A model generated the notes under the pieces. It was not told where the DNA came from. It did no database searches and saw only the letters and a program-made list of their open reading frames with translations. Made by a program: the position numbers and the translations under genes. From Candidatus Zixiibacteriota bacterium (GTDB lineage: Bacteria > Zixibacteria > MSB-5A5 > GN15 > PGXB01), in assembly GCA_900498245.1 (NCBI GenBank), contig LS998015.1:3438384-3491724 (forward strand): a DNA stretch of 53,341 nucleotides, written 5' to 3'. This document shows positions 20,538 through 34,011 of the stretch, piece by piece (the stretch's first letter is position 1; each line of letters opens with the position of its first letter).

Positions 20538-20601
20538 TGAAGTGAATTATTTCAAAAAATAGTTGACAAATATCGACCCCCCTATATATTAATTCACTTC
20601 A
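20538..20601 (+). promoter_or_regulatory. strong promoter flanked by a 12-bp inverted repeat
   Basis: TTGACA (20563-20568) and TATATT (20585-20590) are spaced by 16 bp, giving a strong promoter for the lipoprotein operon with a start near 20597. TGAAGTGAATTA (20538-20549) and its exact inverse TAATTCACTTCA (20590-20601) flank it with 40 bp between. The right arm overlaps the -10 edge and start site. Such an arrangement could bind a regulator at both sides of the promoter. Confidence 0.75.
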
Positions 20602-20614
20602 TAAAAAAAGAGAT

Positions 20615-20734
20615 ATGGTATTTGAAGCCGGAATAGAGCATCATTACCAGACTTCTTTGAGAATGAAAGGAAATGACCGAATTGCGCGACAATTCGGAGA
20701 TGCAGAAAAATTTGAAGTAAACAAAGAGACCTAA
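20615..20734 (+). CDS. possible 39-aa leader ORF
   Basis: An ATG at 20615, preceded by AAAAAGAGA, opens a 39-codon frame (MVFEAGIEHH... ending KFEVNKET) inside the about 220-nt leader of the lipoprotein gene. A second in-frame ATG is at 20663. I do not recognise the peptide. It may be a regulatory upstream ORF, a small protein or chance. Confidence 0.3.
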   Translation: MVFEAGIEHHYQTSLRMKGNDRIARQFGDAEKFEVNKET

Positions 20735-20817
20735 TCAGTCGCGGGATGTGTGCAAGTGAGATTCTTGTGCGTATCCTTTTTTTTCGTCCGTTACGGCGGA
20801 CAGAAAGGAATGTCAAC

Positions 20818-21414
20818 ATGTTGAAGAGAGTATCATTGGTTCTTGTCGCCCTGACGCTGCTGGTGATTGCCGGTTGCAGTAAGGCTCCTGAAGTTGAGAT
20901 GCAGGCGGCTCAGGCGGGGTTGGATGCGGCGAAAACCGCTGAGGCTCAGGATTATGCTCCCGATGCATTCAGAATGGCATCCGATACTTTGAACGCCGCT
21001 ATGGCTGCCAAGCAGGAGCAGGATTCCAAATTCGCACTTTTCCGCTCGTATGGCAAATCGAAAGAAATGTTTGTCCGGGCCAAAGCTCTGGCTGACAACG
21101 CTTCTACTCAGGCCGCTCAGGAAAAAGAGCGTGTGAAACAGGAAGTGACGAATTTAATCACCCAGGCCCAGGCCGCTATCGACAGTGCCGCCGCGGCATT
21201 GAAGAAAGCTCCTAAAGGCAAGGGAAATAAAGCCGAGATCGAATTGATCAACAATGATCTCGTCGGCGTTCAGGCCTCCTTCACGGAAGCTCAGAACGAT
21301 TTCAACGCCGGCAAATACAAAGTGGCTCAGGCCAAGGTTCAGGCTGTAATTCAGAAGGCCGACAGCATCATCAATGAAATAGCCATGGCCGCGGCGAAGA
21401 AGGCGGGCAAGTAG
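20818..21414 (+). CDS. Ala-rich coiled-coil lipoprotein (DUF4398-like) with C-terminal lysine
   Basis: 198 aa from ATG 20818, which follows AAAGGA; the upstream 24 codons are not part of the protein. A lipoprotein signal ends in lipobox VIAGC. The mature protein is almost all helical and very rich in Ala, Gln, Glu and Lys, with the pattern Y-x-P-x-x-x-x-x-A of DUF4398-type domains (about residues 38-100) and a long coiled coil after it. It ends in ...AAAKKAGK, that is, with a C-terminal lysine. The first part is clearly similar to the N-terminal domain of the L,D-transpeptidase encoded next. Its own strong promoter and a hairpin after it suggest high expression. I infer a structural envelope role, possibly a covalent link to peptidoglycan. 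Confidence 0.88.
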   Translation: MLKRVSLVLVALTLLVIAGCSKAPEVEMQAAQAGLDAAKTAEAQDYAPDAFRMASDTLNAAMAAKQEQDSKFALFRSYGKSKEMFVRAKALADNASTQAAQEKERVKQEVTNLITQAQAAIDSAAAALKKAPKGKGNKAEIELINNDLVGVQASFTEAQNDFNAGKYKVAQAKVQAVIQKADSIINEIAMAAAKKAGK

Positions 21415-21452
21415 GTCGGGAAATATTACGATCTTGAACGCACCTAATTCTC

Positions 21453-21493
21453 GCGGGGGTCGAACGAATACAGTACGACCCCCGCAGCATTTT
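21453..21493 (+). terminator. terminator-like hairpin between lipoprotein and transpeptidase genes
   Basis: GCGGGGGTCG (21453-21462) and CGACCCCCGC (21476-21485) form a perfect 10-bp stem with a 13-nt loop, followed by AGCATTTT. The T-run is short, so partial read-through is likely. It lies 38 nt after the lipoprotein stop and before the ATG at 21527, which would make the lipoprotein mRNA more abundant than the downstream part. Confidence 0.65.
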
Positions 21494-21526
21494 GGCCCTC
21501 GCCCCTCGCGTCCTGCTTCGAGGAAA

Positions 21527-22612
21527 ATGCGGAAACTCATTATTGGCTTCGGAATCATTCTCCTTCTGATCGGAGCTGTTATAGTATTATTCGTCGGGGC
21601 TCCGAATCCTCCGACAGTGTCGCTGGAGCACGCCAAGCAGATGCTCAACAAAGCTGAAAAGGCGGCTTCGTTGCGCTACTCCCCTGAAATGTACCGTGCC
21701 GCCGAGGACTTAATCAAAATCGGATGGATGGAAATGGCTCGTCAGAACGGCCGGTTGGCCCCGTTTCGCAATTATAAAACGGCCGATTCGCTCTTGACCC
21801 TGGCTTACCAGAAAGCATCGGACGCCGCCGATCAGGCCCAGAAAACTCTACAAAATCTTCAAGCGACTGTGCAGGGAGAACGTAACCAATTATATGACGA
21901 GTTGCTCGAATGGCGGGAGTCGCTTAACGGCACTCTGGCCAAAAATGACGGCGAAGCTTACTGGAACCGGGCCGAAATGGCCTATAAGACCAGTGAAAAA
22001 CTTATGAATATGGGCGAATACGAAGAGGCGCGAAGTAAAATAATTCTGGGTAAAGAATCATTGCGGCATCTGGGTAAAATCGTGGCCGACTATTCCAATG
22101 ATGAGGCCCAGAAACTTCATATCTGGCAGCGCTGGGTCCAGGAAACAATCGACAATTCACGCGCTGACGGTACCTACGCGGTCATTGTCGATAAAGGAAA
22201 ACACAAGGCATATCTTATTCACCGGGGAAAATTGAAGTTGACTTTCGATTGCGATCTCGGCTACAACCCCTCGACACAAAAACTGTTTGCCGGAGATGGC
22301 GCCACTCCGGAAGGCAAATATTATGTGACGGCCGTCAAGGGCAACGGCGCCAGCAGGTATTATAAGGCCCTGCTCATAAATTACCCTAACGCCACCGATC
22401 GCCAGCGATTCGCGGAAAGCAAATCCCGGGGAATTATTTCAAAACGATCCCGCATCGGAGGGCTTATCGAAATTCACGGAGAAGGCGGGCGAAATCGCGA
22501 CTGGACCGAAGGGTGTGTGGCGCTGTCAAACCGGGATATGGATCGTCTGATGCAATATATTTCAATCGGGACGCCGGTAACAATTGTGCGGCGCTCCAAC
22601 AACTGGCCATGA
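21527..22612 (+). CDS. L,D-transpeptidase (YkuD) with N-terminal helical module
   Basis: 361 aa from ATG 21527, preceded by GAGGAAA; an upstream TTG at 21434 would place the hairpin inside the gene and is unlikely. A basic start and a membrane anchor (about residues 4-22) are followed by a helical domain (30-180) similar to the preceding lipoprotein (both have Y-[SA]-P, then A-x-F-R-x-Y about 30-40 residues later). The YkuD domain (about 205-355) has IEIHGEGG and TEGCVAL with catalytic Cys about residue 330. YkuD enzymes make 3-3 cross-links in peptidoglycan or attach lipoproteins to it. The helical module may bind the lipoprotein or the cell wall. Its stop overlaps the next ATG by 4 nt. Confidence 0.9.
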   Translation: MRKLIIGFGIILLLIGAVIVLFVGAPNPPTVSLEHAKQMLNKAEKAASLRYSPEMYRAAEDLIKIGWMEMARQNGRLAPFRNYKTADSLLTLAYQKASDAADQAQKTLQNLQATVQGERNQLYDELLEWRESLNGTLAKNDGEAYWNRAEMAYKTSEKLMNMGEYEEARSKIILGKESLRHLGKIVADYSNDEAQKLHIWQRWVQETIDNSRADGTYAVIVDKGKHKAYLIHRGKLKLTFDCDLGYNPSTQKLFAGDGATPEGKYYVTAVKGNGASRYYKALLINYPNATDRQRFAESKSRGIISKRSRIGGLIEIHGEGGRNRDWTEGCVALSNRDMDRLMQYISIGTPVTIVRRSNNWP

Positions 22613-23259
22613 AAAAGTTAGTACTTTTTGTCATATTACCGCTGATGATCATTATTGCCGGCGGTGTAATTTATCTTCTGACACTGACACCCGGCGACGC
22701 GGGAGAAGCGGATTCACCGGTTTACGCCGACAGCATTTCGGCGGTGTTGCCCAAAGACGCCAAGGCCGCCAAAAAGGCCCTGGTCTCGGCCCGCGCCAAT
22801 ATGACAAAATTGAGGCCGCGCAAGCCGTATTTGGTTATTGATACCCACGCTAATAAAATTTTCCTGCGGACCGAAGATTCCGTTCTGATCGAGGCCACCT
22901 GTTCCACCGGTTCCGGCGGCGAATATATCGACAGCACCACCGGGCGAAAGTGGATTTTTAATACCCCCCGGGGTATTTTTAAAATCAGTAACAAGATTCC
23001 CCATCCCTGGTGGCGCAAGCCGGACTGGGCCTTTCTCGAAGAAGGCGAAACTATCCCCAAAGATGAAGGGGAACGTCTCGATCCCAATATGATGGGCGAT
23101 TACGCCATGGGGTTCGGCGACGGCTATTTTGTGCACGGCACTATTTATGAACGTCTGCTCGGGATAAATGTCACGCACGGGTGTGTTCGGGTCGGGTCCG
23201 ATGACCTCGAGAAAATTTACAATAAAACGCCGATAGGAACCGCATTATATATCTTTTAG
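22609..23259 (+). CDS. L,D-transpeptidase (YkuD family)
   Basis: 216 aa from ATG 22609, in a 4-nt overlap with the preceding gene; the frame is open upstream but that part overlaps the first transpeptidase. It has an N-terminal anchor or signal (residues 4-24), a short linker and a YkuD domain beginning KPYLVIDTHANKIFL. The classic catalytic motif VHGTIY...THGCVRV is complete, with Cys about residue 192. It is a canonical ErfK/YbiS-like enzyme working in the periplasm on peptidoglycan tetrapeptides. With the previous gene, it gives this operon two different transpeptidases, which could split cross-linking and lipoprotein attachment; that division is inference. Confidence 0.92.
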   Translation: MKKLVLFVILPLMIIIAGGVIYLLTLTPGDAGEADSPVYADSISAVLPKDAKAAKKALVSARANMTKLRPRKPYLVIDTHANKIFLRTEDSVLIEATCSTGSGGEYIDSTTGRKWIFNTPRGIFKISNKIPHPWWRKPDWAFLEEGETIPKDEGERLDPNMMGDYAMGFGDGYFVHGTIYERLLGINVTHGCVRVGSDDLEKIYNKTPIGTALYIF

Positions 23260-23264
23260 ATGTG

Positions 23265-23966
23265 ATGCCTTATTTTATAATGAAATACCGGGTTCTCATT
23301 CTTCCATTAATTTTCCTTTTGCTTATCGGCGGCTGTCGTTCAAAGGAAACCACAAAAGCCGCCGAACCATCCGTAAAAAAGAAGGCCGCCGGCGCAGAAA
23401 CCGGTAAACCCGAAGAAGTGTACCTCCTTCTCCAGTCGGAATTGAAACTGGCCAAAGAGAAAAAGGTATATCTGGTAATCGACATTCCCAATCGGGAGAT
23501 TCTTCTCAAACTGGGCGGGGTGACGGTCTGGAATGATCCGATAAAAATCGATCCTGCCGGGGACTCGGACAGCCTGAAAGATTTCGCCCGCAAATTTACC
23601 GACGGCAATAAGGTCTTCATCCGCCCCGTGATTGATAAACATCTGTATGCCGCATCGGATAAGAGTTCCGATTCGGTTCTCAAAATTGTCAGTGAAGTGG
23701 TGCGGGCCAAAATCGATCTGATGCAGCGGGTCATTCCGGAACGATTCGAGATCCTCTGGGCCAACGACCTGCTTTTGGATATCCGCACCGATGTCCCCGG
23801 AAAGCCGCCCTCAAAATTCAAAAATACCGTGGTGGAACTTCAGCACGCTCTTCAGCGTCCTTTCGGCGAATCGCATGTGGTTATCCGTATGAACGCCGAC
23901 CAGGCCATTACTCTGTACCGGGTGGCGGAGCGGGGCCTGCCAACTTTGATTTATCCCGGCAATTGA
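23265..23966 (+). CDS. lipoprotein resembling an L,D-transpeptidase without catalytic Cys
   Basis: About 228-233 aa; starts at GTG 23262, ATG 23265 and ATG 23280 are all in frame, and the last gives the neatest signal MKYRVLILPLIFLLLIGGC with lipobox IGGC. Residues near 60-85, KKVYLVIDIPNREILLKLGG, resemble the first strands of the YkuD domain of the preceding gene, but the remainder lacks HG and HGC motifs and no Cys follows the lipobox. It may be a pseudo-enzyme or regulatory partner of the two transpeptidases, or an unrelated fold. It is 5-20 bp after them and ends the operon. Confidence 0.75.
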   Translation: MPYFIMKYRVLILPLIFLLLIGGCRSKETTKAAEPSVKKKAAGAETGKPEEVYLLLQSELKLAKEKKVYLVIDIPNREILLKLGGVTVWNDPIKIDPAGDSDSLKDFARKFTDGNKVFIRPVIDKHLYAASDKSSDSVLKIVSEVVRAKIDLMQRVIPERFEILWANDLLLDIRTDVPGKPPSKFKNTVVELQHALQRPFGESHVVIRMNADQAITLYRVAERGLPTLIYPGN

Positions 23967-32613: not shown

Positions 32614-34011
32614 ATGCGACGGATCGTGATATTGATTCTTTTCATTATACCGTCCCTGGGAGGAGCGAATACCACACCGCTATATTCAATCGGAGCGGGG
32701 CCGGGCGCCGGGAATCTACTGGGAGGCAGACCACCATGGTTCACAATTTCTCCCCTTTTGCAGTGCCAATTGGAAGCCCGGTTGAAAGGGCACTGGTTTC
32801 TCGCACTTACATTTGCATCCGGCAAAAATTACGATGATTCGTCGGCCCGTACCAATTTTAAATTCGGCTCCGATAAAAATACACGTTCCCGCTCCCATGT
32901 CAGCCGTGATCTGATACTCACTTTTAAATATCGCAAAGATATTGTGGCAAATGAATTGTCTCTTTTTGGCGGTTTCGGCGGCGGAATTTCCATCTGGGCC
33001 TTCAAGGATAAAGAGGGCGAATCGATTCTTCCGGTGGAAGGGCCGCACGGCGAAACGGTCAACTTCTCCGCCACCGAAATCATTATCGGCCCGTCAGTCG
33101 GATTGGAATATCAACTTTCCGCACGCTGGCGGCTTTCATTGGAATCGAGAATTTCATATTTAACCGGGGCCGGTTCAGAATTTGCCGAAGCCGTCGAGGA
33201 TGCCCGTCCGCCCTGGAAGGCGGCCATTACGGTCAATCTAAATTATCTTTTTGGCGGACGTTCCCAGTCCCTTTCGCAAAACGATGAAAGGCGACATCCG
33301 GCAAAACAGCAATCCGAAGAGCGCGACACGATTTCGACTATCATCGGACAGAATCTTCTCGCAGCGCCGACTGTGCCGAAACCGGCATCATCGCCCCCAG
33401 TAGCGCCTCAGCTCGATAGCGATAATGACGGTATCCCGGATTTTTCCGATTTCTGCCCCGGGACCGAATCCGCCGTCAGAGGAAAGATAGATATTAATGG
33501 GTGCCCAATCGATACGGACTGTGACGGAATTCCGGACTACAGAGACAGGTGTCCGGACAATATTATTGGTGGGATCGTCGATAAAGAGGGATGTCCCATA
33601 GACAGTGACGGTGATGGTGTCCCCGACGGGCTTGACGATTGCCCCGGGAGCGTTTCCGGATTGACTGTCAACAGTTCGGGATGCCTTGATGACGGCATAT
33701 TCGCAAAAGCGATAATTATTCCGGTACGGTATCGTCCCGGTTCCTTTGAATTGGATCCGGGTGCAATATCGAGATTGGACACTCTCGCCCTGGCCATGAA
33801 AGTAGTCACGACAGCCAAAATGCAAATTTATGGATATGGCGACGATTCCGGCAATACTGAGGAAAATCTGACCCTGTCCCAAAAGCGGGCCAATCGTGTG
33901 AAGGATTATCTGGTAAGTCGGGGAATCGCTGGTGATAGGTTGACTCCCACGGGCCGGGGACCGAGACCTTCAAATATAGGCGATAATATTGAACTCAGAT
34001 TTAACAGATAG
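32614..34011 (+). CDS. OmpA-family outer membrane protein with thrombospondin type 3 repeats
   Basis: A 465-aa protein: signal peptide (residues 1-18), an N-terminal beta-barrel (about 25-215), a linker, three calcium-binding thrombospondin type 3 repeats (DSDNDGIPDFSDFCP, DTDCDGIPDYRDRCP, DSDGDGVPDGLDDCP; about 268-350) and a C-terminal OmpA domain (about 360-465) with YGYGDDSGNTEENLTLSQKRANRVKDYL, the peptidoglycan-binding signature. It is a common architecture of FCB bacteria, anchoring the outer membrane to the cell wall non-covalently. Its leader region is divergent from the endonuclease V run. Confidence 0.92.
   Translation: MRRIVILILFIIPSLGGANTTPLYSIGAGPGAGNLLGGRPPWFTISPLLQCQLEARLKGHWFLALTFASGKNYDDSSARTNFKFGSDKNTRSRSHVSRDLILTFKYRKDIVANELSLFGGFGGGISIWAFKDKEGESILPVEGPHGETVNFSATEIIIGPSVGLEYQLSARWRLSLESRISYLTGAGSEFAEAVEDARPPWKAAITVNLNYLFGGRSQSLSQNDERRHPAKQQSEERDTISTIIGQNLLAAPTVPKPASSPPVAPQLDSDNDGIPDFSDFCPGTESAVRGKIDINGCPIDTDCDGIPDYRDRCPDNIIGGIVDKEGCPIDSDGDGVPDGLDDCPGSVSGLTVNSSGCLDDGIFAKAIIIPVRYRPGSFELDPGAISRLDTLALAMKVVTTAKMQIYGYGDDSGNTEENLTLSQKRANRVKDYLVSRGIAGDRLTPTGRGPRPSNIGDNIELRFNR

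Follow-up and report, generated by a model that had tools for sequence, protein, structure and literature searches.

A four-gene cassette of Zixibacteria that may encode a reversible covalent tether between outer membrane and peptidoglycan

In Escherichia coli, the L,D-transpeptidases LdtA, LdtB and LdtC join a lysine side chain of Braun's lipoprotein (Lpp) to the mDAP of a peptidoglycan stem peptide, and a second type of YkuD enzyme, DpaA (YafK, LdtF), cuts Lpp off peptidoglycan. The absence of the transpeptidase arginine two residues after the catalytic cysteine (Cys+2) has been tied to hydrolysis instead of transfer (PMC8263019, PMC10653827), and DpaA-like enzymes are present in many bacteria without Lpp, where their substrates are unknown (PMC8263019). 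An abundant lipoprotein of Methylacidiphilum (WP_009060351), which has a C-terminal lysine and occurs in the peptidoglycan fraction, is proposed as an Lpp analogue (PMC10260701). Here we describe a cassette from candidate division Zixibacteria, an uncultured phylum, that brings a candidate substrate, attacher and detacher together in a single operon. We lean slightly toward the reading that its lipoprotein, which is not related to Lpp, ties the outer membrane to peptidoglycan by a covalent bond that can be undone again, an attachment that we infer.

The window, i.e., the whole stretch of 53,341 nucleotides that was analysed, carries the four genes as one operon on the + strand: the lipoprotein LIP (198 aa, 20818-21414), two YkuD proteins, P0002 (21527-22612) and P0003 (22609-23259), and a second lipoprotein (23280-23966). 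A preliminary description had placed all four genes at these positions, and each was found there. Both YkuD proteins match Pfam PF03734 with 68 bits (E about 1e-18), and in both the catalytic histidine and cysteine are present, the cysteine being Cys330 in P0002 and Cys192 in P0003.

The second enzyme, P0003, has an N-terminal membrane anchor and a YkuD fold with the motif HG...THGCVR, i.e., with an arginine at Cys+2; THGCVR is found in 26/26 members of its family. It groups with E. coli LdtA/B/C/E in the tree and is encoded by the genome's only YkuD gene with an arginine at that position. Judged from motif and tree, P0003 is an L,D-transpeptidase of the LdtA/B/E type and the candidate attaching enzyme. 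The first enzyme had likewise been described as a transpeptidase, which the Cys+2 residue and the tree rule out. Its motif is TEGCVA, with Ala332 at +2 from Cys330; alanine occupies this position in all 30 members of the P0002 family, the arginine in none of them, and E. coli DpaA has the matching Ala145. Alanine or asparagine here is the mark of DpaA/YafK amidases. Lys252 and Tyr278 (Tyr in 26 and Phe in 4 of the 30) correspond to DpaA Lys83 and Tyr109, and the stretch SRYYKA is common to both proteins. The NCBIfam DpaA profile is matched by 29 of the 30 members (best E 8e-11). Both cassette enzymes score far under the NCBIfam equivalog cut-offs, and since P0002 reaches only 27.8 bits against a DpaA cut-off of 365, we regard it as a relative of the DpaA type and not as an orthologue of E. 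coli DpaA. On these residues, P0002 is a YkuD protein of the DpaA/YafK type, not of the transpeptidase type, and a candidate detaching hydrolase.

In front of its catalytic domain P0002 carries an N-terminal domain homologous to LIP (hhalign 99.3%, E 2.6e-20), and the predicted models of LIP and of the P0002 rod share their helix pattern. Other members of the P0002 family are often lipoproteins themselves; in this genus the lipobox cysteine is lost, so that the membrane-anchored protein is probably in the inner membrane in this species. The last lipoprotein of the operon had been said to resemble a YkuD protein. Its profile does resemble that of the transpeptidase to a modest degree (hhalign 90.8%), but a Pfam search of the protein gave no match, and we set aside the idea of a degenerate YkuD. 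Instead, because it strongly matches (98.6%) the extra C-terminal domain that lies behind the transpeptidase in a fusion protein (L153) of genome G127, we treat it as a separate accessory domain. G127 retains just LIP and this fusion, which suggests that LIP and the transpeptidase-accessory pair are the core of the cassette.

LIP itself has its lipid-anchor residue at Cys20 of the lipobox VIAGC. The window protein matches DUF4398 (PF14346) with 21 bits in a profile search, below the gathering cut-off of 27.9, and 24 of 27 family members match it with E values up to 0.01 (best 4e-7). The Lpp profile PF04728 was not found anywhere in the genome, with a positive E. coli control; NCBIfam Ala_zip_lipo gave 20 bits, below its cut-off of 43, and LipL71 matches were weak. 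The initial view of a DUF4398-like lipoprotein distinct from Lpp with a lysine-rich C-terminus (AAAKKAGK) is supported. In the predicted structure a central helix of 52 residues would by itself measure about 78 A, close to what Lpp spans. Fold searches returned only helical-bundle matches of low confidence. Among them, the N-terminal domain of Borrelia BB0323 (Z 10.4, rmsd 6-7 A over 150 residues) was rejected as a relative because helical bundles with no kinship can be expected to give values of this order. High abundance of LIP gains no support from codon usage: its CAI of 0.653 is near the window mean of 0.635, with ribosomal proteins at 0.718.

The terminal lysine is not strictly conserved, a result that, read literally, goes against the preliminary description by its own test. 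Among 43 cassette LIP proteins the last residue is lysine in 24, arginine in 7 and neither in 12, and on the family tree the terminal lysine changed between 4 and 11 times. A weaker form of the claim does stand: 41 of the 43 have at least one lysine among their final 8 residues, and 56% end in lysine compared with 11.5% of neighbouring genes. Attachment through a non-terminal or truncated-tail lysine is known in LimB, Lpg1810 and OutB, which speaks for a tether. The two exceptions, L073 (...SRTGQR) and L157 (...FAENMP), lack a tail lysine next to intact enzymes; no lysine-rich alternative frame was found for either, and a frameshift was rejected as the origin. Divergent LIP homologues in four YkuD-free genomes (G109, G110, G115 and G116) also end in lysine-rich tails, which means that such tails are not confined to genomes with a transpeptidase. 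The labile terminal residue, the two lysine-less cassettes, the tails in YkuD-free genomes and the unremarkable CAI all count against a tether.

The distribution of the genes points the other way. The order lipoprotein, YafK-type enzyme, transpeptidase, accessory protein is kept throughout the phylum while the flanking genes vary, with no conserved neighbours beyond the cassette except lineage-specific ones, and this recurrence argues that the cassette is more than chance. In 132 genomes, a transpeptidase orthologue accompanies LIP in 41 of 43 cases and is present in 0 of the 89 genomes without LIP (Fisher 4e-32, relatedness not corrected); in both LIP genomes without it the cassette stops at a contig end. 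The proposed linkage of LIP to an ErfK/YbiS-type transpeptidase is thereby borne out at the level of genomes. About 60% of the phylum have no YkuD gene at all, and most cassette genomes have none besides the cassette pair.

The alternative that best survives these data, although we think it unlikely, is that the cassette encodes enzymes that edit the wall, with the lipoprotein as their scaffold. P0003 would then make 3-3 cross-links or swap D-amino acids, and LIP would be a non-covalent, outer membrane-anchored partner or activator, as LpoA and LpoB are for PBPs, with its basic tail binding anionic wall material. The variable last residue, the missing tail lysines and the basic tails in YkuD-free genomes are all consistent with this, and the homologous rods of LIP and the YafK-type enzyme could pair. 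However, 3-3 cross-linking requires no lipoprotein, and the transpeptidase was never found without one in the 132 genomes; lysine far outnumbers arginine as the last residue; and a DpaA-type hydrolase next to a transpeptidase better fits attachment and detachment.

A second alternative, likewise unlikely, concerns P0002 alone, and attachment of LIP may still be real under it: the enzyme could be an L,D-carboxypeptidase like Csd6, Pgp2 or Bd1075, trimming tetrapeptides to tripeptides and so tuning substrate supply. The best Foldseek match is indeed the carboxypeptidase Bd1075 (3.8e-8), with DpaA just behind (3.4e-7), and L,D-carboxypeptidases lack the arginine too. By sequence profile, in contrast, DpaA (8ikr, 4.8e-8) ranks ahead of Csd6 (1.2e-6) and Bd1075 (5.8e-5), and the carboxypeptidase-specific tryptophan of the D-Ala pocket (Csd6 Trp158) is absent from P0002, where Glu315 takes its place (29/30 members); DpaA has Met133 there. 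The low NCBIfam scores, the structural match to Bd1075 and the lost lipobox cysteine count against the tether. Finally, it is very improbable that the lysine-rich end is a chance product of the composition of LIP, a helical lipoprotein rich in Ala and Lys, and that the genes share an operon only through a common role in the envelope: the codon usage of LIP would fit, but gene order and exclusive co-occurrence persist despite non-conserved flanks, and a domain duplication ties LIP to the YafK-type enzyme.

The regulatory sequences previously described are in place. The sigma-70-like promoter, TTGACA-16-TATATT at 20563-20590 (+ strand), matches 11/12 consensus positions, and is kept in 5/5 aligned sequences, where it is invariant or nearly so. 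The GC-rich hairpin GCGGGGGTCG...CGACCCCCGC between LIP and the first YkuD gene (about 21452-21486, + strand) is clear in the window and a genus-mate and weaker in more distant relatives. An unexpected extra, overlooked earlier, is a conserved terminator-like hairpin with U8 in the 5' leader of LIP (20743-20785, + strand), which ends about 40 nt upstream of the start codon. RNAalifold gives it 14 pairs, 9 of which are changed on both sides in at least one relative; part of the conservation counts refer to relatives only, with the window sequence left out. A pattern search found a single copy in the genome. An Rfam search of the leader gave no match, and a known riboswitch was rejected; we regard the hairpin as a candidate attenuator.

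In the tether that we favour, Cys20 would carry the lipid that anchors LIP, probably to the outer membrane, with its helical rod projecting into the periplasm and the lysine-rich tail at the far end. P0003, assisted by the fourth protein, would link a tail lysine through its side chain with a stem-peptide mDAP. P0002, on its duplicate of the LIP rod, would have its active site at about the height of the contact between tail and wall and would cut the amide bond between them. Computation gives the domain types, the diagnostic residues of the active sites, the homology of the rods, the conserved gene order and the co-occurrence; what we infer is that LIP sits in the outer membrane, that its lysine is linked to mDAP and released again, how the rods are arranged and what the fourth protein does. 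A fuller version, which we put forward tentatively, is a self-contained, reversible covalent tether that evolved independently of Lpp and whose detacher is a rod duplicate with a catalytic domain in place of the lysine tail, i.e., with a built-in ruler, the whole cassette being governed by a new leader attenuator. Because the candidate parts share one operon and the YkuD enzymes of the phylum are nearly confined to it, the question of DpaA substrates becomes directly testable by expression in E. coli. If the proposal is true, covalent tethers that consist of a lipoprotein and have a release enzyme of their own evolved more than once.

Like the Lpp system, the cassette has a small helical lipoprotein with C-terminal lysine, with a rod predicted to be of similar length, and an LdtA/B-type YkuD enzyme with GC(V/I)R. 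Unlike Lpp, a 58-residue coiled coil, LIP is an unrelated DUF4398-like multi-helix rod of about 180 residues whose lysine is often not the last residue, and the Zixibacteria genes share one operon. P0002 resembles DpaA in its missing arginine and in the residues matched above, but differs in that its catalytic domain sits behind a copy of the LIP rod, in often being a lipoprotein, in the glutamate at the position of Met133 and in being encoded beside its candidate substrate. BbpA, LimB and Lpg1810 (Coxiella, Legionella) and OutB (Dickeya) are also envelope proteins that YkuD enzymes attach to mDAP, in LimB and Lpg1810 through a non-terminal lysine; they are unrelated proteobacterial proteins, and the sources used here describe for them no cassette of their own that includes a DpaA-type enzyme. 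WP_009060351 is, like LIP, a lipoprotein with C-terminal lysine from outside the Proteobacteria, but belongs to a Verrucomicrobiota-specific family, and the part of the source used here describes no linked LDT/DpaA cassette (PMC10260701). The cassette may be an independently evolved, reversible counterpart of the Braun-lipoprotein anchor of E. coli.

The four genes of the cassette lie on the forward strand, at the places and with the content that the preliminary description gave them: the lipoprotein LIP (20818-21414), the YkuD protein P0002 (21527-22612), a second YkuD protein, P0003 (22609-23259), overlapping P0002 by 4 nt, and a further lipoprotein (23280-23966). The host genome is a single contig of 3.5 Mb affiliated with candidate division Zixibacteria, in which the window spans G000:3438384-3491724. 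LIP homologues occur in 49 of 132 genomes of the phylum, 43 of the close kind, and nearly all close homologues have the other three cassette genes downstream in unchanged order. Because this order is kept while the flanking genes vary between relatives, the four genes form one unit. Of the 43 LIP genomes, 41 carry an orthologue of P0003, against 0 of the remaining 89, a statistic that ignores relatedness; in the other two (G069 and G092) the contig ends inside the cassette. By Pfam scan, YkuD is absent from 79 of the 132 genomes, and cassette genomes usually have exactly two copies, both in the cassette. The window's genome has a third outside it (L092:5576-6310, G000:984896-985300), but this one is of the YafK type (TNGCIAV), so that the genome's only transpeptidase-type YkuD sits in the cassette.

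The two YkuD proteins had both been called L,D-transpeptidases, which holds for P0003 and not for P0002. P0003 reads THGCVR, with Arg two residues past the catalytic Cys in all 26 aligned orthologues, matches the LdtA/B/E models, and clusters with E. coli LdtA, B, C and E in a quick tree with long branches. The P0002 motif is T-E/D-G-C-V-A, with Ala in 30/30 members. E. coli DpaA, which cuts Braun's lipoprotein (Lpp) off peptidoglycan, has Ala145 at the Arg position; published work recognises it by the missing Arg and has shown that it acts as an amidase rather than as a transpeptidase (PMC8263019, PMC10653827). Aligned with MG1655 DpaA, P0002 Lys252 corresponds to Lys83, and its SRYYKA to Arg108-Tyr109. 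L,D-carboxypeptidases likewise have no Arg, and P0002 could be read as one of them, but their pocket Trp is replaced by Glu315 (29/30 members; Met133 in DpaA); a structure search placed the P0002 model near Bd1075, YkuD, DpaA and Csd6 alike. Judged by its residues P0002 is of the DpaA/YafK type, yet it falls below the curated cut-off for a DpaA orthologue.

The fourth-gene protein matched no Pfam family. G127 has the transpeptidase and this protein's domain as one fusion, the domain coming second (L153:4517-5572); its locus has no YafK-type gene, and the whole genome only one YkuD gene. This arrangement suggests that domain and transpeptidase act together, and that these two and LIP make up the minimal set.

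LIP is homologous to the N-terminal portion of P0002: their hhalign match spans 168 columns, lipobox region included, at a probability of 99.3% (E 2.6e-20), and HMMER matches run in both directions. The AlphaFold models have the same helix order, 25-40, 48-69, 79-130, 138-163 and 167-195 in LIP (pLDDT 91.7) and 30-45, 53-74, 84-133, 139-161 and 165-214, then the YkuD domain, in P0002 (pLDDT 87.7). From the helix lengths, the ends of this rod would lie about 80 Å apart, the far end being the Lys tail in LIP or the catalytic domain in P0002. P0002 retains a lipobox Cys in many relatives, in approximately 19 of 30 alignment rows by eye and in 20 of 41 by a strict pattern; in the window's genus the segment reads FVGAPNPP and is probably a membrane anchor. 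In its fold, the LIP model (residues 25-198) weakly resembles the N-terminal domain of BB0323, which is a Borrelia LysM protein required for outer-membrane stability; a likeness of this size lies within the noise among helical bundles.

The C-terminal Lys expected to be conserved is not: the final residue of the 43 cassette lipoproteins is K in 24, R in 7, M in 5, P and T in 2 each, and G, N and A in 1 each (background, 11.5% Lys-terminal among 477 neighbouring genes), with 11 changes of terminal Lys on the LIP tree, of which well-supported branches require at least 4. What is conserved is a Lys-rich tail, with Lys among the last 5 residues in 39/43 and among the last 8 in 41/43. Attachment by L,D-transpeptidases through a non-terminal Lys is reported for LimB and Lpg1810, and OutB remains attached once its last Lys is lost. 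Against a tether, the lipoproteins of L073 (G037) and L157 (G131) have no Lys in the last 8 residues, both enzymes being apparently intact, and divergent stand-alone LIP homologues with Lys-rich ends (L159-L162) occur in genomes in which no YkuD was found (G109, G110, G115, G116). L073 and L157 are natural exceptions that could serve to test the tether model.

Upstream, a promoter (TTGACA-16-TATATT, 20563-20590, forward strand) precedes a leader of approximately 230 nt containing a terminator-like hairpin with U8 (20743-20785), also present in the leaders of relatives, including L060, L061, L064, L079 and L149. Of 40 cassettes, 24 have a hairpin with a run of 7 or more T after it, at a distance of 37-63 nt upstream of the LIP start codon. 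Among the 14 consensus pairs, 9 are changed on both sides in one or more sequences. The element is single-copy in the window's genome and has no Rfam match. Together with the conserved promoter some 150-170 nt upstream, hairpin and T tract suggest transcription attenuation, or else a short leader RNA that is partly read through; the hairpin is a candidate new attenuator or leader RNA.

The genome also encodes eight OmpA-like peptidoglycan-binding domains above cut-off, one at 33730-33960 (G000:3472113-3472343), so non-covalent links between outer membrane and wall are probably present as well. Outside subscription journals, we found no description of the cassette system in the literature. The tether idea of the preliminary description gains a candidate enzyme for detachment, one that shares the fold of the tether itself; it is weakened in that the terminal Lys is not strict and that LIP gives no sign of unusual abundance. 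LIP is not Lpp; its cassette is most likely, with a confidence we put barely above even, a Braun-type covalent tether, putatively attached to the wall, that brings its own attaching and detaching enzymes.
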